A stretch of 22,280 nucleotides of DNA. It comes from a virus. This document shows, one piece after another, positions 4,018 through 22,280 of this stretch (within the stretch, counting starts at the first letter, position 1; every line of letters starts with the position of its first letter). The notes under the pieces were generated by a model. It made no database searches and had not been told where the DNA came from. It saw nothing but the letters and a program-made list of their open reading frames with translations. The position numbers and the translations under genes were made by a program. Location: IMG/VR virus record IMGVR_UViG_3300045733_000002, positions 1 to 22,280 of that record; one strand, given 5' to 3'.

Positions 4018-5442
4018 ATGGGTACATTAATAGATAAGAATACAAAGCAATTAATGCTTGCTAAGAAACAAAAGGAGTTAGACGATTTGTTTGCTGAACA
4101 GGAATCTACTAGGGGTAGTCAACCTAAGCAGTATGCTAAGGGTGGCATAACACCTGATAAAGCTAAACGTATGCTAGAAGATGGTACAGTTAGGGGTAAG
4201 AAGTTAACTGATAGGCAAAAAGCATACTTTGGCTTAATAGCTGGTGGGGGGACACCTAGGTTAAAAGCTAGCGGTGGTTTAAAAGTTCCTTACAGGATGC
4301 CAACCCAACAGCCTTTATATAATTCTATATCAGGTGCTAGTGGGTATGGTTTAGATCCATGGCAACAACAAGATTATAATGCATCTTTATCAGAAATAGG
4401 TTTTGATCCTAGGAATACAACTGGATTTGGTTCTGGTTGGGGGCAACCTTATTATGGGCAGGCTCCAGTACCACAACAAGCCAATGTTGGTTATCCAGGT
4501 GGTGCTAGTTATCCAACTAGGGCTGATTATGTAGCTCCACAACCGGGACAACCTACTTTTAGGCCTAAGGATTGGGCTACTAATTCACAACCTGGTCAAT
4601 CTACTAGCAGATCTAATGGGGTTGCTAGCATGGCAACAGATCCTAGGTTTGGTGCATTCACTCAAGCATCAGAAGAACCATATGGATCTAATTTCTTTAA
4701 TCAGAGTAAAATGCCTGCATACGGTAGTAATTTTTTCAATCAGTATAAAGTTCCTGATGCTGATCCAAATGCTCCACCACCACCAGGACCTAATGATCAG
4801 AATTTTGTAGCTACTGAAGCACCTGATACTAAAACTACAAACTGGGGTAAAATAGGTTCTACTGCAGCACAATTAGCTCCAGTTGTATCTAATCTAATTA
4901 GTAGTTTAAGGAAAGATCAGAAGTTAAAAGCTAGTGATTATTATAACCCTAGAGCTAACGAGGTAATGAATCTTATGCGTAATAGACGTACAAATGTAGA
5001 CCCTCAGTTACAAGCATCATTAAATGCAGAACGTACTAATTACTATAATCTGCATAACACTGCAAATGCTAGGGGGGAACTCATGGGTAATATGACTGCT
5101 GCTTCTAATAATGCAGCTGGACAGAGATCTGCTATATATGCCAATAAACAGAATATGGACTTAGGTTACATGGGTCAAGAGGCAGAGATGGCAATGAATC
5201 TTGGTTCTCAAGAACAGAATGCTAATTGGCAAACAATGGACTATAACAATCAGAATGTTGCTAATAGGCGTAATATGTTTCGTGCTGGTTTATCTCAATT
5301 AGCTCAGTATAGTCAGAATAAAGAATTGATGGCTAATCAATTATTAATGGATCAGAATAGAAATAACATATATAAAGATATGTATTCTTCTATATCACCA
5401 TTTATGGAGTTTATGAAGAATTTTAAATTCAGTAATGTTTAA
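4018..5442 (+). CDS. Virion-associated protein with low-complexity Gln/Asn/Pro-rich body
   Basis: A 474-residue protein starting 6 bases after the previous stop in an A-rich leader. Residues 1-30 are a charged helix. Residues 47-77 carry DKAKRMLEDGTVRGKKLTDR followed by QKAYFGLIAGG, a motif I recognise from many phage structural proteins of gut Bacteroidota. It is preceded by YAKGG and followed by KASGG spacers. Residues about 100-265 are low complexity, rich in Gly, Pro, Gln, Tyr and Asn, with a two-copy repeat (YGSNFFNQ) and a PPPPGP run. The last 170 residues are predicted helical (NARGELMGNMTAASNNA, then EMAMNLGSQEQNANW), with many Asn and Gln. No enzyme motif is seen. It is probably an internal or tail-associated virion protein; function is unknown. 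The last 8 bases overlap the start of the GIY-YIG gene. Confidence 0.65.
   Translation: MGTLIDKNTKQLMLAKKQKELDDLFAEQESTRGSQPKQYAKGGITPDKAKRMLEDGTVRGKKLTDRQKAYFGLIAGGGTPRLKASGGLKVPYRMPTQQPLYNSISGASGYGLDPWQQQDYNASLSEIGFDPRNTTGFGSGWGQPYYGQAPVPQQANVGYPGGASYPTRADYVAPQPGQPTFRPKDWATNSQPGQSTSRSNGVASMATDPRFGAFTQASEEPYGSNFFNQSKMPAYGSNFFNQYKVPDADPNAPPPPGPNDQNFVATEAPDTKTTNWGKIGSTAAQLAPVVSNLISSLRKDQKLKASDYYNPRANEVMNLMRNRRTNVDPQLQASLNAERTNYYNLHNTANARGELMGNMTAASNNAAGQRSAIYANKQNMDLGYMGQEAEMAMNLGSQEQNANWQTMDYNNQNVANRRNMFRAGLSQLAQYSQNKELMANQLLMDQNRNNIYKDMYSSISPFMEFMKNFKFSNV
4681..4755 (+). repeat. Two-copy 39-bp tandem repeat coding YGSNFFNQxKxP
   Basis: The first copy (4681-4719) encodes YGSNFFNQSKMPA and the second (4720-4755) YGSNFFNQYKVP, directly adjoining and in frame. 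The copies differ mostly at synonymous sites, including Ser TCT against AGT, so the peptide has been kept while the DNA diverged. The repeat lies in the low-complexity body of a virion-associated protein. Confidence 0.8.
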
Positions 5443-6151
5443 TAGTATTTATTCTATATCATTCGATACACCTTGGTATAAAGACTGCAATCCTATAATG
5501 AGGAACGGAGGAATTTATATTATTAAAAATTGTATAGATGATAAGATATATGTTGGTAGTAGTAAGTGTTTTCATAGAAGGTACCAAAGGCACAGGAAAC
5601 CATTGTTAAACTCAATACACACAAATAAACATTTGCAAAATGCTTTTAATAAACATGGTGCTGATAACTTTAAATTTTTAATCATAGAGATAATAGAAGA
5701 TTTTAATAATTTACTAATCAGAGAACAAAATTGGTTAGATGAATTAATGTCTTACGATAATGTAATTGGATACAACATAGATAGTATAGTTGGACCAATT
5801 CATAATATAGGCAAGTCTCCTAGTGAAGAAACTAGAAGAAAAATATCAGAATCCCTTATAAATAAACATTATTCTAGTGCTAGGAAAGGAGTAACCTTAT
5901 CTGATGAAATAAAAAATAAGATTTCTGATAGTCTTAAGAAATTGAAATTAAATGGATATTGTTTACCTCAAAGTATACCTGTCAAAATGACTAACGTTTT
6001 TTCTGGAGAGGTGGAGGTGTTTGAGTCTATGACCGATGTAAATATAAAATATGGTATCGATAGAACTACTATGTATAAATACAACGGATTAGATAAACTT
6101 ATTAGAAATGTATATAAAATTGAAATACTAAATGATCAACAAATACGATAA
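5435..6151 (+). CDS. GIY-YIG homing endonuclease, I-TevI-like, free-standing
   Basis: A 238-residue nuclease that nicks or cuts DNA at a recognition site and promotes copying of its own gene into alleles lacking it. The catalytic domain (residues 22-118) aligns with I-TevI by eye: GIY at 26-28, YVG at 39-41, then FHRRYQRH with R49 matching catalytic R27, FNKHGADNF, REQNW with E97 matching E75, and GYNI with N114. Next come two NUMOD3-like segments (GKSPSEETRRKISESL at 126-141; KGVTLSDEIKNKISDS at 151-166). A C-terminal helix-turn-helix resembling NUMOD1/IENR1 (FESMTDVNIKYGIDR, about 196-210) would bind DNA. M22 at 5498 aligns with the I-TevI start, so translation may begin there; the ATG at 5435 adds 21 unmatched residues and overlaps the previous gene by 8 bases. 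The 3' end overlaps the next gene by 20 bases. Both neighbours are intact, so this is not inside an intron. Confidence 0.93.
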   Translation: MFNSIYSISFDTPWYKDCNPIMRNGGIYIIKNCIDDKIYVGSSKCFHRRYQRHRKPLLNSIHTNKHLQNAFNKHGADNFKFLIIEIIEDFNNLLIREQNWLDELMSYDNVIGYNIDSIVGPIHNIGKSPSEETRRKISESLINKHYSSARKGVTLSDEIKNKISDSLKKLKLNGYCLPQSIPVKMTNVFSGEVEVFESMTDVNIKYGIDRTTMYKYNGLDKLIRNVYKIEILNDQQIR

Positions 6152-8387: not shown

Positions 8388-9710
8388 ATGGCTACAAAAA
8401 ACATTATCGATTCTCAGGGAGAAATATTAAATGGCACTCCCCTGGGAACCGAATCAGTGAGCCCTAATACGGGGTTAACATCTGAAAAAGGAAGTTTTAA
8501 AATAGATGCCAAGAAACTAGAAGCTTATCCAGCTGGACCTAAGTCAGAACTTTTAGGTAACGTATACACTGAAGATGTATTGATGCCTAAATCTGTCTAT
8601 AGAGTTCTTGGTGATGACTATCATCCAGAATTTGATCCTGAATATAATGCTAAGCTTCTATCTACTGAACAAAGCAATGGTGGTAAGTTTTTATCAGCAT
8701 TGAACCAAGCAGTGGTTGGTCAAGTGATCGGAGGTACAATATCTGGCTTCGGTTATATGCTTGATCTTCCAATGCTTTTTGATTTAGCAGAAGGCACAGA
8801 ACAGGAGTTTGGTAATGCTGTATCTAGATTTGGTGATAAGATGTCTACTTGGGCAGAAGAAGCTACTCCTGTATATACAGATCCTACTGCACCTAAGTTT
8901 AACCCATCTAGTTTTGAATGGTGGATGAAGAATGCACCGTCAGTTGCATCTACTTTGTCTCTAGTTATACCTTCTATGGCTGGTATGAAAGCCTTACAGG
9001 GTATCTCTAAATTAGTAGGTTTAACTGAAAAGATAGGGGAACTAGGTAAGTTTAGTAAACTATTTACTACTTCTCTAGGCCAGGCTATTATGTCTAGGCA
9101 CATGGAAAATCTTATGGAGTCTAGAGGTGTATATGATCAAGGTCTTAAAGATGCTAAAGATGCATTATACACTAAGTACGGAGATCAAATACAGAAAGAG
9201 TTAGGTGCTGCTAAAGACGAAGGTGAAGCAAATAGTATTGAGAATAAATGGGAGAATGTTATTAGCCAAGAGGCTGTTAAAGTAGCTGCTCTTGGTGCAT
9301 CTAATACTTATAATAAGCAATGGGTAATGTTACTACAGGACTTGCCTGAGTACATGCTATTAAATAGATTCATTGGTGGTAAAGGTAAGGGTGCTAAGAC
9401 ATTATCAATGGCAGCAGCAGCTGAGGAAAAGAGTGCTGCAGTAGCAAAACGTTTAGGTGCTAATATGCCTATGTGGTATACTAAAAATGCTGTCAAACAA
9501 ACTCTTAACGCATTAGGTGAAGGTGGTGAAGAAGCATTCCAGTTTATAAATGAACAGCAGTCTGCTCAGATGATTCGTAACTTAGGGGATCCTGATAAGA
9601 AGACTACGTTTACTGAGGAACTTAAAAACAATTGGGATAATGGTGATTTGTGGACCAATACATTTTGGGGAGCTATGGGTGCAGGCTTTATGCAGGCAAC
9701 TATGGCTGGT
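8388..9710 (+). other. N-terminal region of the giant protein with hydrophobic segments
   Basis: Residues 1-441. There are three uncharged segments: about 106-125 (NQAVVGQVIGGTISGFGYML), about 183-206 (NAPSVASTLSLVIPSMAGMK) and about 426-441 (FWGAMGAGFMQATMAG). Amphipathic helices lie between them. The Gly/Ala-rich spacing is unlike a normal transporter helix and more like membrane-inserting or ejection proteins of podovirus virions. No enzyme motif is seen. A role in passing the host membrane is inference. Confidence 0.4.
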
Positions 9711-12700
9711 GTTAACTCAAAAGCATTGGCTGCGTCTAATCAGGCTAGGCTAAAGAACTTAGATGAGTTTGCTCCACTTATTAATAAACTTCATGCAGCT
9801 TATGCTATAGCAGAAGATGAAGGCGATGAGATGGGTATGGAGAAAGCTAAGAAAGCTTTCATTAGTGCAATTAGTTTAAAAGCAAAAAGATTAGGCAATA
9901 AAGATCATTTGCTTAATATGGTAGATGCTTTTGCTAAAGGTGATGATGATGTATTGTCTAGTTACGAAACTGATAAATCTGATAGAGATTGGTTCAAAGG
10001 TAGAACTGATATAGCCGATGATCTTAAAGCTGATATAAATAATGTATCTAATAAATTTGATGAGGCGTTTACATATTCTAAATCTAAAGGTTTAACAGAC
10101 AAAGAAAGTAACGATATGGCTATGAGAATGGCTCATAGTAACTTTTTACTTGAATTTTTTAATAAGAAATTAGCAGAACATGAAACAATAGCATCTACAC
10201 AACAGGTACCAGGGTATAATGTACCTAATCCAGAGAATAAACAATTATCCAGTGTTGGTAAACAAAAATTTGAGTTAGAGTATGATAAATTTTATCTACA
10301 GAAGAAGTTAAATGCTGTTAATAAAAAATTAGAAAATAAGGATGCATTACCTGCTGATATAGAGGATTGGAATAAGGACAAGAATTACTTAGAGAAAGCT
10401 ATAGCCTTTAAAAACGATAGCATAGGTATACTTGATAAAGAAAAGACTGTAGACAAAAAGCAAAGGGACATAGATACTGAGTTACATGGTGATTTAACTA
10501 AGCCAGAATACAATGGTACAATGCCTAGGGGTAAAGACCCAGAACACCCAGAAATAAAAGGTATATTGGATGTTATAGATACACGTAAAACTATAACAGC
10601 TTATCAAGAGAATATAGATATTTTTAAACGTATGCTGGACCAAACTAGGGCTAGGGTAGACGAAATATCTGCTAGTAGGAAAGCTAAACCTGCTGATAAA
10701 AAACCTACAACCCCTGTTAAACCTGTAGTAGAAGACAAAGAAAATCTAGACATAAGTGACAATGCAACATACATAGGCACAGATGGTCAACCTGGGCGTG
10801 GTAGGGTAATGCATATTGAACATGCTACTACGGATGGAGAAGGTAAAGATAACACACCTAGTGCTGAGAACATTGATAACACTGTGACTATACAACCTAT
10901 TGATGATAAGGGTGAACCAGTAGGTGATTTAGTATATGTTAAAGGTACTACTGTTCAGAAAGAAAGTAGTGATAAGAAAGTAGATGATACAGCAACTAAA
11001 GCAGAAGATAGTCTAGAAGGTGATGAAATAGAAATGTTACCTGAGGGTCCTAAAGACTGGTCAGATTTGGCAGATAACTTAAAGGATTCGTATAGGAGAC
11101 AGAGTGGTTCTCCACTTGCAGGACTTATAGAATTTCTATCTTATACCGAGTATGATGATAGTATACCTAAAGAAGCTAGGGGTCGTGGTGTACTTAGGAG
11201 ATTGTTAGTTAGAGATAAGAGTTTAAATAAATTTATATCTAACCCAGCTAATCAAAAGTATTTAGCAAGTGCTATTGCAACATATAGCTTTGATTTAAAT
11301 AATGAAAAGTTTGTAAAGGACATAAATACAGCTGTAGAAGCTAAAAGACTACGAAGTGATCAAGCACATTATATATTAGAATTTATAAAGACTGGTAAAC
11401 GTCCTAAGACTAATCATAGGGGTGATGTATTAAAAGAAAGTGACTGGCAGAAAGAATTAGCTAGTTTAATGACTTTGCCAGAGTTTGTTGATTTGCCTAT
11501 CAAGATAGAACTTACTATAAATGGCCAGACGTTTAAGGAACGTTTGTTCATGCATACTATATATAAGACTAGGCAATCTTTAAGTATTAATAATAAAGAA
11601 CTTGGTTCTTTAATGTCTACTTACACATCTATGCGTAAGCAGATGATCACTCATTTGATAAACGGTGATCAAGTATACACTCAAGGTCTTGCTACTAGCA
11701 GGGGTAACCCAACTAATATAGATAAAACTAATGATCCTAGTATAAGTCAAAAAGATAGGGCAGAAAAGAGAAAGAATAACATACTAGACGTATTTGGTTT
11801 AACTTATGATAATGTAGAATTATTTATACTTAAATCAGGTACTAAGACTATGGATGCTAAGTCTTATTCAAGACCTAAATTATTCAGGGATAATGATTCT
11901 CCACCAGAGGCTATGTCATACGATTTCAACTCTGTTGGTTCTGTTATGATAAGGACCAATAGAACTGTAGACGGTCAATGGTATGCAGTTAAACTTAACA
12001 AGTCTTATATATCAGGTGAACATGCTGCAATAATATTCAATGCATTTAGCATGCTTGCTAAAACAGAACTTACTAAAGAAGGTGGGTTCTTACCTGCTGG
12101 CAATAGGAAATTTATAGGTAGGTACAATGCACCTATAGATCCACGTGTAAAGAAAGGTACTGAGGCAGAGGAGTCTGTGTTATGGAATATATCTATTGGG
12201 GAATTCTTAGATTTAATGGTAGTTCATGGTGAGGAATTAACTGATCCAGATAGTTCCAGGTATAAGTATGTCAATGAGAAGAACTCCATGTCTGAGGATC
12301 ATAAGAGATCTTTGAAACTTAAAAGGTTATTCTTAAGACGGGGCTATGGTTTAGATGGCAAGGTAGATGGTATATATTTATGCTATGGTCTTACTAAGAT
12401 AAAAGATAAAACTACTGGTGAAGTAACTTGGGGTACTCCGAATGTTATAAACACTTCTAAAATTGGAGTTCAAGAATCTGTAGATTATAATATGATTAAC
12501 TTAACTGAGTTAATCAAAACCCCTACACAGAAAACAGCACATGATGCAGCAGTTGATGATTTTATGGAATGGGTACAGGAAAATAAAACATATGCTGTTC
12601 ATCTAGAAAATAGAAGGTTGTTTCAAAAACTTAATGGGGGATTTTTAGGTGGTAAAAGTTTTAGGATAGGTAAGGCTGGTAAACGATTTCATCCAGGTGA

Positions 12701-15700
12701 TTCTAATAATAAACAATATTCATATACTACTGCAGGTGAAATAACTAGGCAAAAAAATGAATCTTACGTAGAGTTCTTAATAAGGAATAATTTCATAACC
12801 ACTGATATAGAAGAACGTGATGGTGTAATATTTGATACTCCACATGTAGAGCTAGGTCTTAGTAGGAACAAAGGTGAAAACTATGGAATTCAGGTTGTTA
12901 AGAAAGACAAAGAGTTACCTGATACTACGGCTATAAAAGAAAATCCAAAAGGCACAAGGCGTGTAGTAGCTGATAAAGATAATCCTGCTACTACTATTAA
13001 AGTACCTAAAGAGGAAGTTATAGCACCACCTGTAGTTGAGGAAAAGCCACCTGCAGCTGAAGAGGCACAACCTGCTGAAACTAAACCTAAAAGAACTAGA
13101 ACTCCTAAGGGTAAATTTGATGAGAAATTTAGAGAACGAGAAGATCTAACAAAAGTATATGAAGTACAAGATTTAGTAGAGGAGTTAAGGTGGCTCAGAA
13201 AGACTTTGAACTTAGGTAAGGATGAAGTTGAGATAGAGAAAGATGTAGCTAAAATGGTATTTAATGGTAAGAATGCATGGGGTGTATTCAGTAGTGCCGG
13301 TATGATCATATACGAAGCTGCTGAGAAAGGTACTATATATCACGAGGCATTCCATAAGGTTAACTTAGCATTTCATAGTAAAGCAGAACGTGAGATGATA
13401 TATCGTGCTGCTCGACAGTTATATCATATGTCTAAAGAAGAGTTTACAGACAATCAAGTAGAGGAGAAATTAGCAGAAGAGTTTAGGGACTTCGTTATTA
13501 CTAAACAAAAAGCATCTCAACCTAGTTTTATCAAGCGTGTATTCCAGAGGATATACAATTTTATAAATGCATTATTTTTTAGGGCAGGTTCAAGGTTAGT
13601 ACAGTCTGATATAGACAGGTTATTCAATCAAATACATTCAGGTAAATATAGGTTTGCTAAGACTCTAAAAGAGAACAAACTCATAGAGCCACGTCTAAGG
13701 TCTATAATGGGTGAAGACTTTGATACTATTAGTACATATGAAGATATTACTAATATGCAAAAGTATTTGGCCACTAGGTTATATGAAGTAAGTGGTGTAC
13801 AGAATCTCAAAAGTTCTCGTGATTTTAGATTCGATAAACTAGTCATGGAGATGGAAGAGGATATTATGCAATTGGAATATGATTTGCAAGATCCAAATTT
13901 ACCTGATGCTAGGAGGAATAGGTATATAAAATTATTAGCATCTCTAAAGGATGTACTTGGTGAGAAAGATGAAACTGGTTTCTATCCTAAGTTCACTATA
14001 TTTGTAAAATATATAAATAGGTATTTCTCAGGTTTAGGTGTTAAAAAGAGAAATAACAAAGAGGAAGATGATAGTATAGAGGATCAGGGTAGTAGGTACG
14101 ATGAGTGGTTATCTGATGAAGAAACAAGTAGAGTTGGTGGTGAATATGGTATGGAAGACTTTTTTCATTCATTACAAGATGGTACGTTAGCTAGTGTTAA
14201 ATTTTTCATAAACACTTTGCATGAATCTTCAGATTGGAATGAAAGGACAGGTTATAGGACATTTGTAGATGGTAATTTTGTATGGTATAAATTATTGAAT
14301 GACATAGCTCAATATGACAATGTGTCTGAAATGATAAATGAGATCAGGAGAATTGGTGAGTATGACAACTATTATCCATATATGGAACTGGCTGATAAAT
14401 TAGAGGATGCCACTGAAGAGTTTCGTACTCAATTCCAAATCTCATTTGAAGTGTATAAGCATGTACATTTATTAGTACAATTCACTAGGGCTGAAGGTAA
14501 AGATAATAAAGAAATAAACATGTCCTTTGATAGTGCTACAAGGGAACAGTTATCTAGAACTACTGTACTCAAGTGGAATGAATTAATGCAAGCAGATAGG
14601 AGTGTTATTGGATTACCTGGTACTAAGTTTGGTGATTCTACTATTACAGCAAGGAATAAGGACGTAAACACTAAGTTTTTTGAAGAGTTATTAAAAGAGT
14701 TTGACGAGAAGGTCACAGGTTTTTATGATGATAAGGTAAAGGATGGACCGTTAATATCTGATAAAGATGTAGATACTCTATTTAAAAGAGCTTCTAAGAT
14801 GCTAGACAAAATACACATCAGTATTAAACCAGATGTATTAAGACACTACGCTACTAATTTGAGTGATAAAGAACTTAATAAAAACTTATATAAATTTGTT
14901 AGGAATTTAAGGAGTTTAATGGGCCAAGAGATAGTGCTAGATAATGAAGGCGATATAATACAGTATATGAAGAATACTATTATATTATCTTTATCGGAAG
15001 CATATGCTAATGTTAACAAGCACGAAGAGGCAGATATGGTAGTAGGTCCAGAAGGTCACATGATATGGCGTTATGGTAAGTTAAACCTACCTACTAGTTA
15101 TTTGAGGAAGATAAAGAAAGATTCTAAATGGGCAGAAGGAAGACGTAATTCTGTAGGTAAAAAAGGTTCTAGGATATTAAGTTCTTTTGTTCCTAAGTCT
15201 GATTCAGAAGAAGATGTAGCAACAGCTAGTGCCTATAGAGATAAGTTTGGATTAATGACTATGTCTAGTTTTAAAAGGCAAAGTAACTATGCTTCAAGTA
15301 GTAGGGACTATTTACATTTAACTAGACAAGAAGATTATTTATTTAAAGCTTATAGTATACTAGAAGGTAAGATGTTACCTTTCCCAGTAATGGCTGATAG
15401 GGGTGGTTATTTTGAAATGATTGGTGCTGATTTAATAGGTATATCAGAAGGGGATATGACATCTAATGTTATAACTAGCCTTACACCAGAAGGTGATGTT
15501 GTATTTACAGACGATGTTATAAATGCATTTTATAAATACTACGAAGATGAAAAAGAGATAATAGATGCAGCCTTAGAAGTTAGGAAAACTTACAGGGAAG
15601 GTGTTGAGTTATTTAAAAAAGAGAATGCTAAACCTGATGCTGATAAAGCATATTTGAAAGCATATTCTAGAGATCTTAGAAGTAAACTTATAAAAAATTA

Positions 15701-18700
15701 CCATTATGGCTTTGATAAGAATGGTAAGATGGATCTTAATCTAGGCAATGCTTATAATTTTATACACTTCAAAGGTTTTGAGAAATATAAAACAGTAGAG
15801 GAAATAAGGGTAGGTATAGGCCAATTGTTAAACGATAGGCTAAAGGATGAAATAAAATTTACTTTAAAGCATGATATAATAGGTAGCAACCCAAGTAAAG
15901 AGACACCTGGTGGGATACTGTATCATAACATATTACTAAGTAGTAAGTACACAGAGGCTAATGAGGATATACTAGTTAAGAATTTTGGTATAATATCTGC
16001 ATTGTCTCAAATACTTGTTAATACACAAATAGGTGTAATGGAATCTGAGAAATTGTTTTTAGCAGATCATGCTCAATTTCAAAGGAATTCTAAAGATCCT
16101 GATAATTTTGATACATATGAACAAGTTTATAAGAGGTGGTTTGGTGTCGGTGGTACAGGTACTAAACTAAGGGTTAACATACCTGGTAGGCGTACTTCTT
16201 ACAATGCATCTACTCTCAATACTCAAAAATTTAAATCTCCTGTATTTGATCTTCTAGTTCCTAAACACGAAGAGTTGTATAGGGAAATGCTGATGTCTAA
16301 ATTATCTAAAGAGGAGTTAAAAGACGAACTTAAATTAGCTAGCGTTAAGGTATTAGCTAGGGACCTTGCTGAAAAGCGTTTGTCTAAATATGAGAATGTT
16401 GACTCAACTGATGGTGGTGCTTTTATATCCCCAGAGATGTTCTATGAGATTAGTGATAGACTTGGTATGTGGAGTGATAGAAAGCAAAAAGCATTTGATT
16501 TACTTAATTCAGATGAAAAACTTACAGCAGCTCAAATATTAGCAGCTAGTAATATAATATTCAATCCATTAAAGACTATGTATATAGGACACCATGATTT
16601 CAATGGTGTTGATATGCTAGTGTACAACAAGATGGCTATGTTCACTTTGTTTAGGCAACATGTTAAAGGCACTCATTTGGAAGAAGTGCTGGATAGAATG
16701 GAGACTAAAGGTAAATATGCAGATAAGAAATTAGAGAAGATACATGTTTATAATTTTGATACAGCTGTTAAGGTAGGTGGGCTAATGGGTATGGACTTGT
16801 TCACCAGTGCTACTAAAAGGAATGAAGTAAGTGATTTATCTGGTTCTTTAGTATTCAAACAAAGCTTTGGCAACCTTAGTCATCAACAGGTTATAGATCC
16901 TCACAATGGTATGAGCCAAACCTTTGGTACAGCAGGCTTTAAAATAGCCAGTGCGGATGTAATTAAAGATAGTAAATATAGTGACTTTGGTACTGGGGAA
17001 GAATTGCTAGACGCTCTTCATTATGCTAGGGCTACTTTGAGTGACTTTGGTATACATAGAGTGGATGCAACCTTTGGTATGTCTAATGGTAAAATATCTA
17101 ATAAAGCATTTCTAGATATATTACGTGATGCTGCTGAAGGTGCTAATAAATCTTTTGATTTTCAACAAGCTTTAAGGATAGAGGAGAATGGTGAAAAATA
17201 TCTAGAGATAGATTCATTTAACGATAGGAAATGGATATATGCTAGGATAAAAACTATAGTAGACGAACTTACAGTAGACTTAAATACCCCAGGTAATCAG
17301 CTGGTACAGATGAGTGATTACGGTATGAATAAGACTGCAAGTTATACTGAAGAACTTAATTTCACTAGGTCTGAAGTAAAAGCTGAAGGGTCTGAAGAAC
17401 CTACGAAAGTATATGAAATGGAATGCAGGGTATCTATCAGGCTATTTAAGAATTTCTTTCCACATGGGCATATTATAACTCAGCCTGAGATTCAAATGCT
17501 ATTGGATAGTAGCCCTCAGTTATTTGGTTATCGTGTTCCTACACAGGGTCAGAACTCATTAGTAAGACTAAGGGTTGTAGACCTATTGCCAGAACAAGCT
17601 GGTGATATAATACAGTTACCATTAGAGTTTACTGCTTTGACTGGTTCTGACTTTGATATAGATAAGTTATATGTAGCTATGCATAATTACATATCAGAAA
17701 CTGATAAGCAAGGCAATATTAAATTATCTAAAATAGCATATTCAACTAGTGAAAAAGAAGCACAATCTAGGTGGAATAACAAAGTATTAGAGTTATATGA
17801 TATATATAAAGATTCTATAGAGTCTCTTAGGGGAATGTCTACACAAGATGTAACTATTTCTATTCTTTCTATAATTGACAAATACTATGGTAAAATAACT
17901 AATCATGGTACATACAAACAACGTCATCCAGAGGAAGAGAGTATAGGTAACACCCCTATAGGTGATAGCCTATCAGCAGAACAAGTAGAAGCGCTTAGGA
18001 ACTTAGGTAGAGAGAATCAGAATATACCAGATGATATTGGTACTGTAGACAGTACAGAGAATGCAGAAAGGGGTACTTACTTAAACGAAAGACTCAATTT
18101 ACTTGCTAGGATAGCATCCATAGAAAAGAAAATAGCAGATAAAAGTGGTAATGAAATATACAAAGAACATTTACAACAAGACTTAAGACAAGCTAGGGGT
18201 AAATTAAATAAAATGGTGGATGAATCAAATGTAGTTCCTAAAAACAATCTAATGTCTGAATTCATATCAGAGTTTGATTTAAAGGTACTAGGTGATTATT
18301 TTGTTAAGTCTGGTAAGATACTATCACTCGAAGAGTTCTCTAAATTGCCATTAGAACAGCAGAACACTACTAAAGCTTTGCAGAATAGGTTGTTAGATTT
18401 AATGATGACAATATTAGGTGATGAGAAACACTTTGTAAATTCTACTACACCACTTGGTGTTATGAATGATGTATTGTATGCTAAGAAAGATTTTTACACT
18501 AAAGCATATAATCCTAGTGAATACACAAGTGCTCCTGGGTTGTATACAACTACTCCATCTTTCCAGTCTGCTATGAAGGAAAAGTTTTCAGCTGCTAAGT
18601 TTGGTATAGCTCCTTATGCATTAGGTAACAACCATCATGCATTAACTCAGATGGCTGGTGTAATAATGCAAGAGTCTAAATTAGACTTAGGGTTTAATAA

Positions 18701-21700
18701 AAAAGGTGAAATAGACCTATCTAGAGTAACAGGTGAGGATGGTATGTATATAACTTGGTGGATATCGGCTTTGATAGACATACATGTTGATGGTGTTAAC
18801 AAGCCTATAGCTACATCTCTTAATATAAATGAAGCTACTCATGATATGGTCAACTTCCTTATAAGGGCAGGGTTAGGTGATACTACCTTTGATTTTATTA
18901 ATCAGCCTGTTATGAGGGACTATTCACATTCTTATTTCAATGTTAATAAAAAATATGGTAAAGATAGTAATAGGATATCAACTATAGACAGTACTGATGA
19001 ATTAAGAGACCTTAATGAAAAATGGAAGTATACTTTGCTTAATGAAGGGGTTTTAACAGAAGAACAGTTTGATGCATTTGATAAAAGTTATAAGATACCG
19101 TTACCACAGTTATTAAACAAGGCTCAATTGCGAGCAGATGCTATTGAATCAACTAAACCTAATAAGAGTAAAGCATATTATATAAGGCAATATTCTATAT
19201 CACGCTACTTAGAAGATCTTAAAAAGGATTCAAATGATTTACGTTCATTCGTATTAGCTTGTAGGGTAGATACTAAAAAATATGGTGCTAATCCTGTAGA
19301 GATATTCCACTTCTTAGATACTATATATAACGTAATGCACAACAGCTCTCTTCCTCCAGTAGATGGTAAGAGAGGTAGTAGATTTAAAAACATAGAGCGT
19401 ATTTTAACTACTGATAAAAATTATAAGTATAAGAAAGGTGATACATTCTTACCAACTATAATTAGGAATAGTATGTATAAGATATATGACTTACTAAAGA
19501 ACGATAGTATATATGCTACCAGGGGGTTCAATATGATATTGAACGATATGATTGATTCTACTAGGAATGGTGACTTTGTAAGGAAGAGTATGATCAATAC
19601 TACCATGGAAGAGTTGATGACTTATTTCATTGGCAAGTTTTTCTCAGATCCAGTAGATGGGTTAGGTTTAACTACAAATGATGTTAGGCACTTAATAGTA
19701 GAATTAGACAACAAAGATTCTATATATGAAACTCTTTTGAAATTAAAGACCCCTAACGATCCATTGTATGAAGAAGTTAAAAACAATCCATTATTGAATA
19801 CTTTGATAGTAGATCTTTCTGATGCTATTTTAGAAGATAGAGCAGGGGAACCTATTCCTTATATGTATATAAAAACTCCTTATAGATCTAAGAGTAATGA
19901 GTTAACTAAAGAAGAGTTACAGGAAGGTTTTAAAGATTTATTCTCTAGTCCTAATGAAAGGCTTAGGGATTTGGCAATGTCATTGTATATATATTCATTT
20001 TATACTTCAGGTTTTAGACAGAGGCTAACTTCATTCTCTTCCTATATACCTATATATATGAACAAAGAGTTTAAGTATAAAGGTAAGGTAGTTAGTTTAA
20101 ATGAACACATGAAAAAAATACTAAATAAACTATCGACAGAATATGGTTACTTAGAGTATTTGGCAGAGGCTAAGAGAGAAGTGTTCACTAACATGTGGGA
20201 TACAGAAGGTTACGCTTTTGCTATAGATGATTATATTGGTAAAGAGAACGGTATAAAAGTGTTGAAGAATTTCTCAGATGAAAATTCTGATTCGTTAGGT
20301 ATTAAAATAAAAACAGAAGGTAAGACTGTATTGTCTAGAATGTCACTTGGTGTTAATGCTAGAAAAGAAAATATATTTGTTCCATATATAAAATTTGCTA
20401 GTAACTTATATGAATACATGGGATATGATAAAGCTGATGGTTCCATGTATTATGTATCAGTATCTAAGAAAGGTTTAGGTTCTAATGGTCATGGTAGTAA
20501 AGGTTTGTTTATATATGAAACTGGTTTGGGTAGCATAGATGATAGATTACCTAATGAATCAATGTTAGGAAAAACTAGCAATAACCCTACTAGGAGTGGT
20601 GCTACAGTCAGGGCTAAGAAAGATAGAATTATAAAGAATGGTATAGCAATAGTTAATGCAAATTTGTTAAATTTCGTAGAGGTACCTTTAGAGAATCAAA
20701 TAGTTGCTGATAAATATGCAAGTTTAGCAACTACTTTTTTTGATAAGGATGAAAGTGATGCTGACATACTAAGGCGTCAAGACCAGTTAGCTGCTGTTGA
20801 ACTCAAACGTATGAATGATCAAGACAAGTTACGTAAAAATGCTTTTGATACTGCTACTGCTAGTGATTTTAATGTAAATGATAACTTAAGCATAGAGAGT
20901 GATACAGAGGAATTATTTCCAGGTGAAGATCCAGCTAATAGGGCAGCTAAGAAACACACATCAAATTTAAAAGCTAGCAAAGATAATATGACTACAGAGG
21001 AGAACCCTATTATAATAAGTATAGATGGTTCATCTAAAGGTGAACAAAACAATCATGTGTTAGGTGTAGGAGCATATTCTAAATTTGGTGATAAAGAATA
21101 TTTCTTATATAGAGATGATTCATCAATACGTGGTATGATTGATAGGCTAGCAGGTAGTAGAGGTGTAAAGGTACCAGAAGATATGTCAAATGGCATAGCA
21201 GAGGTATATGCATTGTTATCAGTGATGGCAACGTTTAAGGATACTTCAGAGAATATATTGATAGAAAGTGATAATGAATTAGCCTTATACCTATTTAAGG
21301 ATCATATGATAAACCCAGGTGATAAACCAATTAAAACTGCTGGGAATCCTATTATAAAGATACTACACGAACTTATAACTAAATATATAAATCAACTTGA
21401 AAGTAACGGTGGTTCTGTTAAACTCAGATATACAAAGACTAAATCTACAGCTAATTCTAAAATCGTAGACAAGGTGGCCAAGGGGGAACATAAAATAAAT
21501 ATTGAACACAATGACTTTAAAGATGAGAAATGGGGTGTACCTATTAAATTTACACCAGCTCCTATAATAAATGTTAATAAAGAGTTTACAGGTCATTCCG
21601 GTGGGGCACCAGGGACATCAAAAGTTGGTAGTGAAGCAAGGTGGTCTTCTGATTTAATATGGGAAGATGAAGGTACTGATCATGGTGTTAATTGGGAGAA

Positions 21701-22280
21701 CTTTAGTTTCAAAGGTCATAATCATGGTAGTAGGAAGACTACAGATGTACGTCAGATAGAGAGTTTACCTGTTTCTTCTGTAGATAAAGCAAAATTAGAA
21801 TATGCAAAAGCTGCTGCACAACTAGGTAAGAATGTAGCTAATAAGGAATATACTTATAAACTCATGCTTAGGAATTGGTTCCAAGTTAAATCATCAGATG
21901 GTATATATGCTATAGGTAGACTTGATTTAGGCAAAGGTCAAGTAGATGGTGGTACTGGTTATGCAGTTCAGATGGCTATAAATAATAATAAACTATTGTT
22001 TGTATACGATCTACAAAGTAGGCGTTGGTATAAATATGATTATGTATCAGATAAATTTATGCACTATGCTGCTACACCTATACTAGTTAAGAATTTTGCA
22101 GGTATAGGAACACGTGGTAGTGCTAGTGGTGATAGCTTAATGGATAAAGAAACCTATGATTTAATTAAGTCTGTAGTTAAAGCAGTGTATGATAAGACAT
22201 TTGGGGAATCTAAACCAGTTGATCCAAAGGTTAGTCCACCAGAAGCAAATAAAAGTAATGAAACAAATAAAACTTGTTTG
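8388..22280 (+). CDS. Giant virion RNA polymerase polyprotein: zincin, RNAP, RNase H-like, SLOG-like (3' partial)
   Basis: One frame runs from ATG 8388 to the right edge with no stop: at least 4631 residues, end not seen. No Shine-Dalgarno is visible; the leader is A/T-rich. Order of parts: residues 1-440, hydrophobic patches; about 440-760, charged helices; Pro/Lys linker about 760-785; about 785-1540, mixed region of unknown function; Pro/Glu linker about 1539-1579; zincin metallopeptidase about 1620-1720; RNA polymerase module about 2305-4024 with GSDFDID (Asp 3088, 3090, 3092); RNase H-like about 4206-4368; SLOG-like about 4400-4606; Pro-rich linker at the edge. Known crAss-like virion RNAPs are single chains related to the two-barrel polymerases, are packaged, and transcribe early genes after injection. 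This chain is about twice the length of the characterised phi14:2 enzyme because extra domains are fused at both ends. The role as an injected polymerase is inferred from that family. Confidence 0.93.
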   Translation, partial: MATKNIIDSQGEILNGTPLGTESVSPNTGLTSEKGSFKIDAKKLEAYPAGPKSELLGNVYTEDVLMPKSVYRVLGDDYHPEFDPEYNAKLLSTEQSNGGKFLSALNQAVVGQVIGGTISGFGYMLDLPMLFDLAEGTEQEFGNAVSRFGDKMSTWAEEATPVYTDPTAPKFNPSSFEWWMKNAPSVASTLSLVIPSMAGMKALQGISKLVGLTEKIGELGKFSKLFTTSLGQAIMSRHMENLMESRGVYDQGLKDAKDALYTKYGDQIQKELGAAKDEGEANSIENKWENVISQEAVKVAALGASNTYNKQWVMLLQDLPEYMLLNRFIGGKGKGAKTLSMAAAAEEKSAAVAKRLGANMPMWYTKNAVKQTLNALGEGGEEAFQFINEQQSAQMIRNLGDPDKKTTFTEELKNNWDNGDLWTNTFWGAMGAGFMQATMAGVNSKALAASNQARLKNLDEFAPLINKLHAAYAIAEDEGDEMGMEKAKKAFISAISLKAKRLGNKDHLLNMVDAFAKGDDDVLSSYETDKSDRDWFKGRTDIADDLKADINNVSNKFDEAFTYSKSKGLTDKESNDMAMRMAHSNFLLEFFNKKLAEHETIASTQQVPGYNVPNPENKQLSSVGKQKFELEYDKFYLQKKLNAVNKKLENKDALPADIEDWNKDKNYLEKAIAFKNDSIGILDKEKTVDKKQRDIDTELHGDLTKPEYNGTMPRGKDPEHPEIKGILDVIDTRKTITAYQENIDIFKRMLDQTRARVDEISASRKAKPADKKPTTPVKPVVEDKENLDISDNATYIGTDGQPGRGRVMHIEHATTDGEGKDNTPSAENIDNTVTIQPIDDKGEPVGDLVYVKGTTVQKESSDKKVDDTATKAEDSLEGDEIEMLPEGPKDWSDLADNLKDSYRRQSGSPLAGLIEFLSYTEYDDSIPKEARGRGVLRRLLVRDKSLNKFISNPANQKYLASAIATYSFDLNNEKFVKDINTAVEAKRLRSDQAHYILEFIKTGKRPKTNHRGDVLKESDWQKELASLMTLPEFVDLPIKIELTINGQTFKERLFMHTIYKTRQSLSINNKELGSLMSTYTSMRKQMITHLINGDQVYTQGLATSRGNPTNIDKTNDPSISQKDRAEKRKNNILDVFGLTYDNVELFILKSGTKTMDAKSYSRPKLFRDNDSPPEAMSYDFNSVGSVMIRTNRTVDGQWYAVKLNKSYISGEHAAIIFNAFSMLAKTELTKEGGFLPAGNRKFIGRYNAPIDPRVKKGTEAEESVLWNISIGEFLDLMVVHGEELTDPDSSRYKYVNEKNSMSEDHKRSLKLKRLFLRRGYGLDGKVDGIYLCYGLTKIKDKTTGEVTWGTPNVINTSKIGVQESVDYNMINLTELIKTPTQKTAHDAAVDDFMEWVQENKTYAVHLENRRLFQKLNGGFLGGKSFRIGKAGKRFHPGDSNNKQYSYTTAGEITRQKNESYVEFLIRNNFITTDIEERDGVIFDTPHVELGLSRNKGENYGIQVVKKDKELPDTTAIKENPKGTRRVVADKDNPATTIKVPKEEVIAPPVVEEKPPAAEEAQPAETKPKRTRTPKGKFDEKFREREDLTKVYEVQDLVEELRWLRKTLNLGKDEVEIEKDVAKMVFNGKNAWGVFSSAGMIIYEAAEKGTIYHEAFHKVNLAFHSKAEREMIYRAARQLYHMSKEEFTDNQVEEKLAEEFRDFVITKQKASQPSFIKRVFQRIYNFINALFFRAGSRLVQSDIDRLFNQIHSGKYRFAKTLKENKLIEPRLRSIMGEDFDTISTYEDITNMQKYLATRLYEVSGVQNLKSSRDFRFDKLVMEMEEDIMQLEYDLQDPNLPDARRNRYIKLLASLKDVLGEKDETGFYPKFTIFVKYINRYFSGLGVKKRNNKEEDDSIEDQGSRYDEWLSDEETSRVGGEYGMEDFFHSLQDGTLASVKFFINTLHESSDWNERTGYRTFVDGNFVWYKLLNDIAQYDNVSEMINEIRRIGEYDNYYPYMELADKLEDATEEFRTQFQISFEVYKHVHLLVQFTRAEGKDNKEINMSFDSATREQLSRTTVLKWNELMQADRSVIGLPGTKFGDSTITARNKDVNTKFFEELLKEFDEKVTGFYDDKVKDGPLISDKDVDTLFKRASKMLDKIHISIKPDVLRHYATNLSDKELNKNLYKFVRNLRSLMGQEIVLDNEGDIIQYMKNTIILSLSEAYANVNKHEEADMVVGPEGHMIWRYGKLNLPTSYLRKIKKDSKWAEGRRNSVGKKGSRILSSFVPKSDSEEDVATASAYRDKFGLMTMSSFKRQSNYASSSRDYLHLTRQEDYLFKAYSILEGKMLPFPVMADRGGYFEMIGADLIGISEGDMTSNVITSLTPEGDVVFTDDVINAFYKYYEDEKEIIDAALEVRKTYREGVELFKKENAKPDADKAYLKAYSRDLRSKLIKNYHYGFDKNGKMDLNLGNAYNFIHFKGFEKYKTVEEIRVGIGQLLNDRLKDEIKFTLKHDIIGSNPSKETPGGILYHNILLSSKYTEANEDILVKNFGIISALSQILVNTQIGVMESEKLFLADHAQFQRNSKDPDNFDTYEQVYKRWFGVGGTGTKLRVNIPGRRTSYNASTLNTQKFKSPVFDLLVPKHEELYREMLMSKLSKEELKDELKLASVKVLARDLAEKRLSKYENVDSTDGGAFISPEMFYEISDRLGMWSDRKQKAFDLLNSDEKLTAAQILAASNIIFNPLKTMYIGHHDFNGVDMLVYNKMAMFTLFRQHVKGTHLEEVLDRMETKGKYADKKLEKIHVYNFDTAVKVGGLMGMDLFTSATKRNEVSDLSGSLVFKQSFGNLSHQQVIDPHNGMSQTFGTAGFKIASADVIKDSKYSDFGTGEELLDALHYARATLSDFGIHRVDATFGMSNGKISNKAFLDILRDAAEGANKSFDFQQALRIEENGEKYLEIDSFNDRKWIYARIKTIVDELTVDLNTPGNQLVQMSDYGMNKTASYTEELNFTRSEVKAEGSEEPTKVYEMECRVSIRLFKNFFPHGHIITQPEIQMLLDSSPQLFGYRVPTQGQNSLVRLRVVDLLPEQAGDIIQLPLEFTALTGSDFDIDKLYVAMHNYISETDKQGNIKLSKIAYSTSEKEAQSRWNNKVLELYDIYKDSIESLRGMSTQDVTISILSIIDKYYGKITNHGTYKQRHPEEESIGNTPIGDSLSAEQVEALRNLGRENQNIPDDIGTVDSTENAERGTYLNERLNLLARIASIEKKIADKSGNEIYKEHLQQDLRQARGKLNKMVDESNVVPKNNLMSEFISEFDLKVLGDYFVKSGKILSLEEFSKLPLEQQNTTKALQNRLLDLMMTILGDEKHFVNSTTPLGVMNDVLYAKKDFYTKAYNPSEYTSAPGLYTTTPSFQSAMKEKFSAAKFGIAPYALGNNHHALTQMAGVIMQESKLDLGFNKKGEIDLSRVTGEDGMYITWWISALIDIHVDGVNKPIATSLNINEATHDMVNFLIRAGLGDTTFDFINQPVMRDYSHSYFNVNKKYGKDSNRISTIDSTDELRDLNEKWKYTLLNEGVLTEEQFDAFDKSYKIPLPQLLNKAQLRADAIESTKPNKSKAYYIRQYSISRYLEDLKKDSNDLRSFVLACRVDTKKYGANPVEIFHFLDTIYNVMHNSSLPPVDGKRGSRFKNIERILTTDKNYKYKKGDTFLPTIIRNSMYKIYDLLKNDSIYATRGFNMILNDMIDSTRNGDFVRKSMINTTMEELMTYFIGKFFSDPVDGLGLTTNDVRHLIVELDNKDSIYETLLKLKTPNDPLYEEVKNNPLLNTLIVDLSDAILEDRAGEPIPYMYIKTPYRSKSNELTKEELQEGFKDLFSSPNERLRDLAMSLYIYSFYTSGFRQRLTSFSSYIPIYMNKEFKYKGKVVSLNEHMKKILNKLSTEYGYLEYLAEAKREVFTNMWDTEGYAFAIDDYIGKENGIKVLKNFSDENSDSLGIKIKTEGKTVLSRMSLGVNARKENIFVPYIKFASNLYEYMGYDKADGSMYYVSVSKKGLGSNGHGSKGLFIYETGLGSIDDRLPNESMLGKTSNNPTRSGATVRAKKDRIIKNGIAIVNANLLNFVEVPLENQIVADKYASLATTFFDKDESDADILRRQDQLAAVELKRMNDQDKLRKNAFDTATASDFNVNDNLSIESDTEELFPGEDPANRAAKKHTSNLKASKDNMTTEENPIIISIDGSSKGEQNNHVLGVGAYSKFGDKEYFLYRDDSSIRGMIDRLAGSRGVKVPEDMSNGIAEVYALLSVMATFKDTSENILIESDNELALYLFKDHMINPGDKPIKTAGNPIIKILHELITKYINQLESNGGSVKLRYTKTKSTANSKIVDKVAKGEHKINIEHNDFKDEKWGVPIKFTPAPIINVNKEFTGHSGGAPGTSKVGSEARWSSDLIWEDEGTDHGVNWENFSFKGHNHGSRKTTDVRQIESLPVSSVDKAKLEYAKAAAQLGKNVANKEYTYKLMLRNWFQVKSSDGIYAIGRLDLGKGQVDGGTGYAVQMAINNNKLLFVYDLQSRRWYKYDYVSDKFMHYAATPILVKNFAGIGTRGSASGDSLMDKETYDLIKSVVKAVYDKTFGESKPVDPKVSPPEANKSNETNKTCL
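13245..13560 (+). other. Zincin-like metallopeptidase domain of the giant protein
   Basis: Residues about 1620-1725. GTIYHEAFHKVNLAF places HExxH at H1652, E1653 and H1656. About 41 residues later EEKLAEEFRDF supplies E1697/E1698 as a likely third zinc ligand, the gluzincin-like arrangement seen in the metallopeptidases of phage polyvalent proteins. It is preceded by GMIIYEAAEKGT and followed by a basic helical stretch (FIKRVFQRIYNFINALFF). All residues needed for zinc binding and catalysis are present. It sits just after a Pro/Glu-rich linker and ahead of the polymerase. It could process this polyprotein or attack host or virion proteins; the target is unknown. Confidence 0.8.
15300..20460 (+). 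other. RNA polymerase module (two double-psi beta-barrel type) of the giant protein
   Basis: Residues about 2305-4024, borders approximate. Motifs in order: LTRQEDYLFKAY...PVMADRGGYFE (D2337); FNPLKTMYIG; a barrel with FDTAVKVGG (K2795) and GTAGFK (K2852), candidates for the conserved lysines of the first barrel; YRVPTQGQNS (R3049), matching the RxPTxHR region of beta'; GSDFDIDKLYVAM with metal-binding Asp 3088, 3090 and 3092; KFGIAPYALGNNHHALTQ at about 3404-3421, in the bridge-helix/trigger-loop region; YTSGFRQRLTSF (3872-3883). DFDID in place of the cellular DFDGD is the signature of crAss-like virion RNAPs. The module lies wholly within one chain. It would synthesise RNA from phage DNA; early transcription after injection is the established role in this family. 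Confidence 0.9.
21003..21491 (+). other. RNase H-like domain of the giant protein
   Basis: Residues about 4206-4368. All four acidic positions of an RNase HI fold are present in order and spacing: D4213 in IIISIDGSSKG, E4272 in NGIAEVYALLS, D4295 in NILIESDNELAL, and D4361 in NSKIVDKVAKG, which matches the 'N..AD.lA..G' end of the family. The first motif is followed by a glycine/hydrophobic strand (VLGVGAYSKFG), as in the second strand of RNase H. Intact catalytic residues suggest an active enzyme that cleaves RNA in RNA:DNA hybrids. Fusion behind a polymerase on one chain suggests clearing of hybrids or primer-like RNA during early transcription, which is inference. Confidence 0.8.
21585..22205 (+). 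other. SLOG-like (DprA/LOG superfamily) nucleotide-binding domain of the giant protein
   Basis: Residues about 4400-4606. A glycine-rich N-terminal loop (FTGHSGGAPGTSKVGSEARW, S4404 GG) is followed by a segment similar to SLOG proteins that read SGGA.GSD..WG. Then come LMLRNWFQVKSSDGIYAIGR, DGGTGYAVQMAI (GGTG at 4521-4524), the typical SLOG phosphate loop, and LVKNFAGIGTRGS (4572-4576). This set matches SLOG-type domains I know from gut-phage giant proteins and polyvalent proteins. Such domains bind nucleotides or nucleotide-derived ligands. The ligand here cannot be told from sequence. The SGGA motif reads SGGAPGTS, without the usual Asp after Ser, so binding may be altered. Confidence 0.65.

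Follow-up and report, generated by a model that had tools for sequence, protein, structure and literature searches.

The analysed DNA, hereafter the window, is the entire IMG/VR record IMGVR_UViG_3300045733_000002 (22,280 nt). Its last gene is a very large open reading frame in which an RNA polymerase (RNAP) core, an RNase H domain and a DprA-like domain are all encoded (Table 1). By homology, the product is a crAss-like virion RNA polymerase (vRNAP), because its core aligned with g066 of phage phi14:2, the DFDID motif was present at residue 3088 within this homologous core, and the N-terminal part (residues 58–514) matched, by tblastn, proteins annotated as "RNAP associated protein fused to zincin protease". 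The phi14:2 protein is annotated as a catalytic RNAP subunit with MS/MS evidence. The HEAFH sequence at residue 1652 of the window protein is a candidate zincin metalloprotease motif. Beyond the RNAP core, a charged, probably flexible linker leads to the RNase H. The contig probably ends at the true C-terminus of the vRNAP or a few codons short of it, because the near-terminal cysteine that is conserved in crAss-like vRNAPs is present. An earlier note on this DNA had placed an RNase H-like domain behind a virion RNA polymerase and had assumed AT-rich DNA. The polymerase assignment was right at the level of homology and the GC content of 33.9% bears out the assumption; the DprA-like domain and the position of the contig end near the true C-terminus had gone unmentioned. 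Upstream of the vRNAP, the gene block includes a homing endonuclease gene at positions 5435–6151 (phrog_314, E 3.8e-31; also GIY-YIG family phrog_5123).

Table 1. Features of the vRNAP frame in the window. Residue numbers (aa) count from the start of the frame.
Feature	Coordinates	Strand	Basis or remark
Giant crAss-like virion RNA polymerase ORF	8388..22280	+	4631 aa, last gene, open at contig end; crAss-like RNAP proteins matched by tblastn
HEAFH (HExxH), candidate zincin metalloprotease motif, aa 1652	13341..13355	+	Motif read in sequence
RNAP core region aligned with phi14:2 g066, aa 2473–3888	15804..20051	+	tblastn, query 302–1717, 22.4% identity, E 5e-28
DFDID catalytic motif, aa 3088–3092	17649..17663	+	Read in sequence
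Charged linker, RNAP core to RNase H, aa 4110–4206	20715..21005	+	21 acidic and 13 basic among 97 residues
Type 1 RNase H domain, aa 4197–4385; profile match aa 4199–4379	20976..21542	+	Profiles, alignment, predicted structure
D4213 (GAT), E. coli RNase HI D10 equivalent	21024..21026	+	Profile alignment
E4272 (GAG), E. coli E48 equivalent	21201..21203	+	Profile alignment
D4295 (GAT), E. coli D70 equivalent	21270..21272	+	Profile alignment
D4361 (GAC), E. coli D134 equivalent	21468..21470	+	Profile alignment
DprA-like (SLOG-type) domain, after RNase H	21576..22034	+	phrog_768, E 2.8e-9 and 6.1e-10
C4630, near-C-terminal cysteine conserved in crAss-like vRNAPs	22275..22277	+	Comparison of vRNAP C-termini

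The stretch singled out by the earlier note, 21,003–21,491, is in frame with the ORF starting at position 8388 and corresponds to residues 4206–4368. The RNase H-like domain behind the vRNAP was confirmed and the noted extent was found to be slightly short, the profile match covering approximately residues 4199–4379. These residues almost certainly form a true type 1 RNase H domain. Taken as a single sequence, the window domain gave no convincing match in Pfam, NCBIfam or the PDB (phmmer), no match to the RNase H profile PF00075 at E ≤ 10, and nothing useful against viral contigs, the window RNAP core alone faring likewise. The Pfam matches Importin_rep_2, Nup54 and SQS_PSY were dismissed as weak, as was the one tblastn match to phages, a tail fibre at E 0.6. 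The family, in contrast, was readily recognised. A profile of 11 sequences (ten relatives and the window) matched 55 sequences of the PDB at E ≤ 0.1, led by E. coli RNase HI (E 3.3e-10), and PF00075 was found at E ≤ 1 in ten of the 11 aligned members (best 6.6e-14), the window being the exception. The curated cut-off of PF00075 was passed by five of 11 records with the fused domain, and four of 11 such records were devoid of any PF00075 match, so that this profile misses divergent copies.

The window domain was itself recovered with 60.4 bits (E 2.6e-21, one protein searched) by a profile of seven distant relatives, built without the window and its nearest three. Shuffling the residues of the domain gave 8.2 bits at best (1830 scored of 2000). 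Identity to the window in the domain alignment ranged from 24 to 47% across the ten relatives. No relative was found when the domain of one of these ten (L023; loci and contigs of the survey are numbered with the letter L) was used as a single query against genome contigs of bacteria and archaea.

The predicted structure led to the same assignment. The AlphaFold model of the domain, obtained with the 11-row alignment, had a pLDDT of 90.2 and a pTM of 0.89. The earlier note had made its proposal depend on the presence of an RNase H beta-sheet, and the order of strands and helices in the model was that of RNase HI. Foldseek matched the model to RNase HI with an E value of 4.4e-7, a probability of 1.00 and TM scores of 0.52 and 0.62; the rmsd, 6.2 over 171 columns, was high. 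With VIA-align the match was an archaeal RNase HI (Z 14.2, rmsd 2.8, 136 aligned residues), followed by the RNase H of HIV reverse transcriptase. Among viral predicted structures, the best match was a putative RNase HI from an uncultured marine phage (E 7.2e-13).

The catalytic residues of E. coli RNase HI are D10, E48, D70 and D134. The four acids claimed for the window, D4213, E4272, D4295 and D4361, are present, in the order claimed, and aligned to these positions; by this alignment they would form a single catalytic site. They were invariant in 17 of 17 sequences and belong to the ten invariant columns of an alignment that includes the window and the free-standing member L108 and excludes L112. 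In the latter, the four acids could be read by eye with TGA taken as tryptophan. An active-site loop histidine, H124 in E. coli RNase HI, aids catalysis there and is not essential. It was kept in 13 of the 17 sequences and replaced in the window, L013, L014 and L016, and is thus lost in the window's subclade. As H124 is accessory, its loss was not used to exclude membership in type 1 RNase H; the activity of the window domain and its three nearest relatives could be lower for want of it. Five members of the 17-row alignment had an insertion of approximately 25–30 residues ahead of the last aspartate. The domain is predicted, with good confidence, to be catalytically active as an RNase H.

Relatives of the polymerase emerged only once known crAss-like RNAPs were aligned for searching. 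The scan of viral contigs with this RNAP-core alignment yielded 302 relatives, and the best 80, ranked by similarity to the window, were kept. Together with nine named phages, these 80 loci gave 74 non-redundant complete frames after ORFs open at the 3' end, tails below 500 aa and entries with identical last 60 aa were dropped. A C-terminal RNase H homologue was present in ten of the 74 (L013, L014, which is the same as L015, L016, L017, L020, L021, L022, L023, L024 and L028). This proportion is no frequency for the order, because the 80 loci were the best 80 of 302 in likeness to the window. Scans directed at the RNase H added L096 (same as L097), L099, L101, L106, L108, L112 and L114. In L096, L099, L101, L106 and L114 the domain lies C-terminal to the RNAP core in one frame, and in L112 one 3492-aa frame under translation table 4 spans both RNAP and RNase H. 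L108 is a free-standing member of 179 aa on an 88-kb contig that gave no RNAP match. The total therefore amounts to 17 contigs with the fusion (ten, six and the window) and one with a free-standing domain. The same C-terminal extension, for which the earlier note had suggested a survey, occurs in 16 contigs other than the window, and the pairing thus recurs in a set of related environmental viruses. The vRNAP of L112, a crass-like contig, forms an open frame only if TGA is read as tryptophan. The crass-like RNAPs of L099 and L101 (records of about 128 kb) are highly divergent and show GSDKDID at the position of GSDFDID in the window.

In an RNAP tree of 83 rows, the window grouped with L013 (98%) within a four-row clade of RNase H carriers (100%). 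The tree was computed with a "quick" method after twelve near-copies had been removed by hand; L112 was absent and L096 and L114 formed long branches. The RNase H trait required five changes on this tree (four without the open-ended rows), compared with a mean of 14.9 after shuffling. The clustering is partly due to selection, because five of the 16 RNase H rows had been picked for carrying the domain.

The tails of these polymerases differ in their modules. In 60 tails, very short ones being also removed, the Pfam matches at E ≤ 0.001 were DUF7831 (nine tails), RNase_H (eight), cpYpsA of the SLOG type (seven), DUF1848 (six), AAA_30/AAA_19 helicase (five), NADAR (five) and DNA_processg_A (two). 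By these matches, the vRNAP C-terminus is a variable bay that holds RNase H, SLOG/DprA-like, NADAR and helicase modules. A SLOG-type domain stands beside the RNase H in eight of 12 members examined, as phrog_768 (DprA-like) in the window and L022, as cpYpsA in L014, L017, L021, L023 and L024, and as cpYpsA below the cut-off in L112. None was found beside the RNase H in L013, L016, L020 and L028; for L013, L020 and L028 this statement covers Pfam in the stretch ahead of the RNase H and in the whole tails of the 60-tail tally. In L016 and L114 the RNase H is followed by phrog_2072, of unknown function, which may be macro-domain-like. In the window, the GGxxGxD loop of the DprA-like domain has an 11-residue insertion in the alignment. 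Foldseek gave no match at E ≤ 0.001 with the model of this domain, and the name DprA-like therefore rests on sequence.

The window domain shares with type 1 RNase H (PF00075; E. coli RNase HI, the archaeal 2ehg and 3h08 from Chlorobium) the fold and the D-E-D-D residues at the same positions; it differs in being joined to the C-terminus of an RNAP, in belonging to a subclade without the loop histidine and, for five members of the family, in the insertion. Fusions of RNase H with a reverse transcriptase are textbook knowledge. In these fusions (HIV, foamy virus) a polymerase and a C-terminal RNase H are likewise on one chain, whereas the polymerase of the window is an unrelated DNA-dependent RNA polymerase. 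A related known polymerase, gp66 of phi14:2 in the Crassvirales transcription block, shares DFDID and the homologous core with the window. Its gene has 2181 codons including the stop and no such module was seen in its tail, whereas the window protein is extended by a long N-terminal part and by the RNase H and DprA-like domains. Polyvalent proteins (Iyer et al. 2017, via the available portions of PMC7824862 and PMC9503650) are also very large multi-enzyme chains, thought to be injected and containing modules related to nucleotides or ADP-ribose. The window protein differs from them in being built on a crAss-like RNAP, and an RNase H in such a setting was not found in those portions of the two papers.

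A PDDEXK domain is described in some large transcription proteins in section 7 of PMC7886860. The terms "RNase H" and "DprA" are absent from the main text of that paper, and from PMC12386605 and PMC10136315. The literature searched contained no description of an RNase H fused with a crAss-like or virion RNAP; the phi14:2 RNAP paper (Drobysheva et al.) and Yutin 2018 lay outside its scope and an earlier mention is possible. As far as these searches reach, an RNase H on a phage-carried DNA-dependent RNA polymerase is undescribed.

We propose, as the reading that we favour on balance, that the C-terminal RNase H, probably active, is injected together with the polymerase and cuts hybrid RNA at the start of infection. 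According to PMC7886860, the phi14:2 RNAP accompanies the DNA into the cell and is responsible for transcribing the early genes. RNAP-associated proteins of crAss001 are virion cargo and were proposed to be ejected partly unfolded (PMC10172136). By analogy with these relatives, the window vRNAP is probably packaged in the virion and injected. In this model, the polymerase with its RNase H tail would enter the cell alongside the DNA, so that the RNase H would arrive with the first RNA polymerase and be present before the phage can express any gene. It would cut the RNA strand of RNA:DNA hybrids, the likeliest substrate being hybrids left as the tethered polymerase transcribes the entering AT-rich DNA early in infection. 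The earlier note had suggested R-loops on injected DNA or hybrids with host RNA as possible substrates; its interpretation is supported in part, for the fold, the catalytic set and the fusion. That the enzyme acts on hybrids of its own polymerase's transcripts, and does so at entry, is a narrower proposal and one on which we lean slightly towards doubt. The model raises the question of whether the virion RNAP leaves RNA paired with DNA that has to be cleared.

The invariance of the four acids in the face of such low identity to the window speaks in favour of the model. The domain is lacking in 64 of the 74 vRNAPs and is therefore not required for vRNAP-driven early transcription in general. 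L108, free-standing and on a contig without an RNAP match, is as compatible with a general RNase H as with one linked to a polymerase.

A different function would be replication housekeeping, in which the domain would be a general phage RNase HI removing RNA primers, including primers made by RNAP, and its location on the vRNAP would reflect gene economy or an early delivery of the first copies. Across 14 records that contain the fused domain, PF00075 matched nowhere outside the fused frame. The comparators, 34 crAss-like records without the fused family (one of them, L035, with the end of its vRNAP cut off), included four with a stand-alone RNase HI of 162–167 aa (cr118_1 and the records of L046, L053 and L057), and the function can therefore come another way. 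RNase H1 occurs in all jumbo phages of group 1, which possess multisubunit RNAPs of their own and for which priming by RNAP-made transcripts was suggested (PMC7824862). Against this, 30 of the 34 comparators were without a PF00075-detectable RNase H, which argues that crAss-like phages generally need none of their own. The comparison of 0/14 with 4/34 moreover involves too few records, with a profile that misses some fused copies, and we do not claim that the fused and the stand-alone RNase H exclude each other. A housekeeping role appears to us rather improbable.

The module turnover at one place of the chain, where the tails hold DUF7831, RNase_H, cpYpsA, DUF1848, helicase or NADAR, and the frequent SLOG-type neighbour of the RNase H could also be explained by a counter-defence payload. 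The C-terminus would then be a delivery bay whose RNase H destroys the hybrids of retrons, of defence reverse transcriptases or of Argonaute guides, and the SLOG and NADAR modules may act on NAD or ADP-ribose signals. Virion-packaged polyvalent proteins with such domains were published as conflict factors (PMC7824862 and PMC9503650). Nevertheless, the analysis turned up no direct link to a defence system, RNase H is also an ordinary nucleic-acid housekeeping enzyme, and counter-defence by SLOG/DprA-like modules is itself a prediction. Retron defence was in addition reported to depend on the host RNase H1 (PMC8989520), so that an extra RNase H need not harm retrons. We consider a counter-defence payload unlikely. 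Finally, it is highly improbable that the domain is an inactive RNase H fold, serving to bind hybrids or nucleic acids or to support the structure of the polymerase, as the missing loop histidine of the window's subclade might suggest, since metal-binding acids without a catalytic role would be expected to drift when the rest of the domain diverges to this degree, and they are kept throughout.

Returning to the model of a co-injected RNase H, a broader version of it can be put forward with much reserve. The vRNAP C-terminus would be a swappable payload bay with a near-invariant terminal cysteine, from which enzymes are delivered with the first RNAP. Here, the tethered RNase H would act on the polymerase's own product before phage gene expression, as a machine that makes RNA and clears hybrids (if the transcript stays paired to the DNA), or else as a hybrid-destroying weapon against host immunity. 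The resemblance of crass RNAPs to RNA-interference polymerases is described in PMC7886860. As an exchange site for enzymes (RNase H, SLOG, NADAR, helicase), the vRNAP C-terminus may help to find cargo that acts before phage gene expression.

In the Klebsiella phage Pylas (L003), of the Schitoviridae (N4-like), the vRNAP is unrelated to that of the window, and its chain too includes a DprA-like domain. This domain lies at approximately residues 985–1160, in the first third of the chain, whereas that of the window is C-terminal, and the alignment showed no RNase H. Two unrelated vRNAP lineages thus carry the same accessory domain. Pylas had been considered as a combination of RNase H and DprA-like domains; the local alignment was convincing for the DprA-like part alone and the preceding stretch was dismissed.

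The vRNAP C-terminus of L010 (cr130_1) combines DprA-like, NADAR and DUF7831 modules. The tails of L007 (cr50_1) and L009 (cr118_1) appeared by eye to contain an SF1-type helicase, the whole proteins being annotated "DNA helicase" and "exonuclease V". A cysteine was present within the last six residues in 69 of the 74 non-redundant complete vRNAP frames, against a cysteine content of 0.17% in the remaining tail, and was the sole cysteine of the available frame in several (L017, L021, L040, L041, L043, L046 and L049). The five exceptions were L011, with a cysteine at position −11, L066 and L074, in which the cysteine is followed by a short extension, and L030 and L032, in which the frame continues without a cysteine. 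In the next large ORF, a terminal cysteine was seen in 0 of 15.
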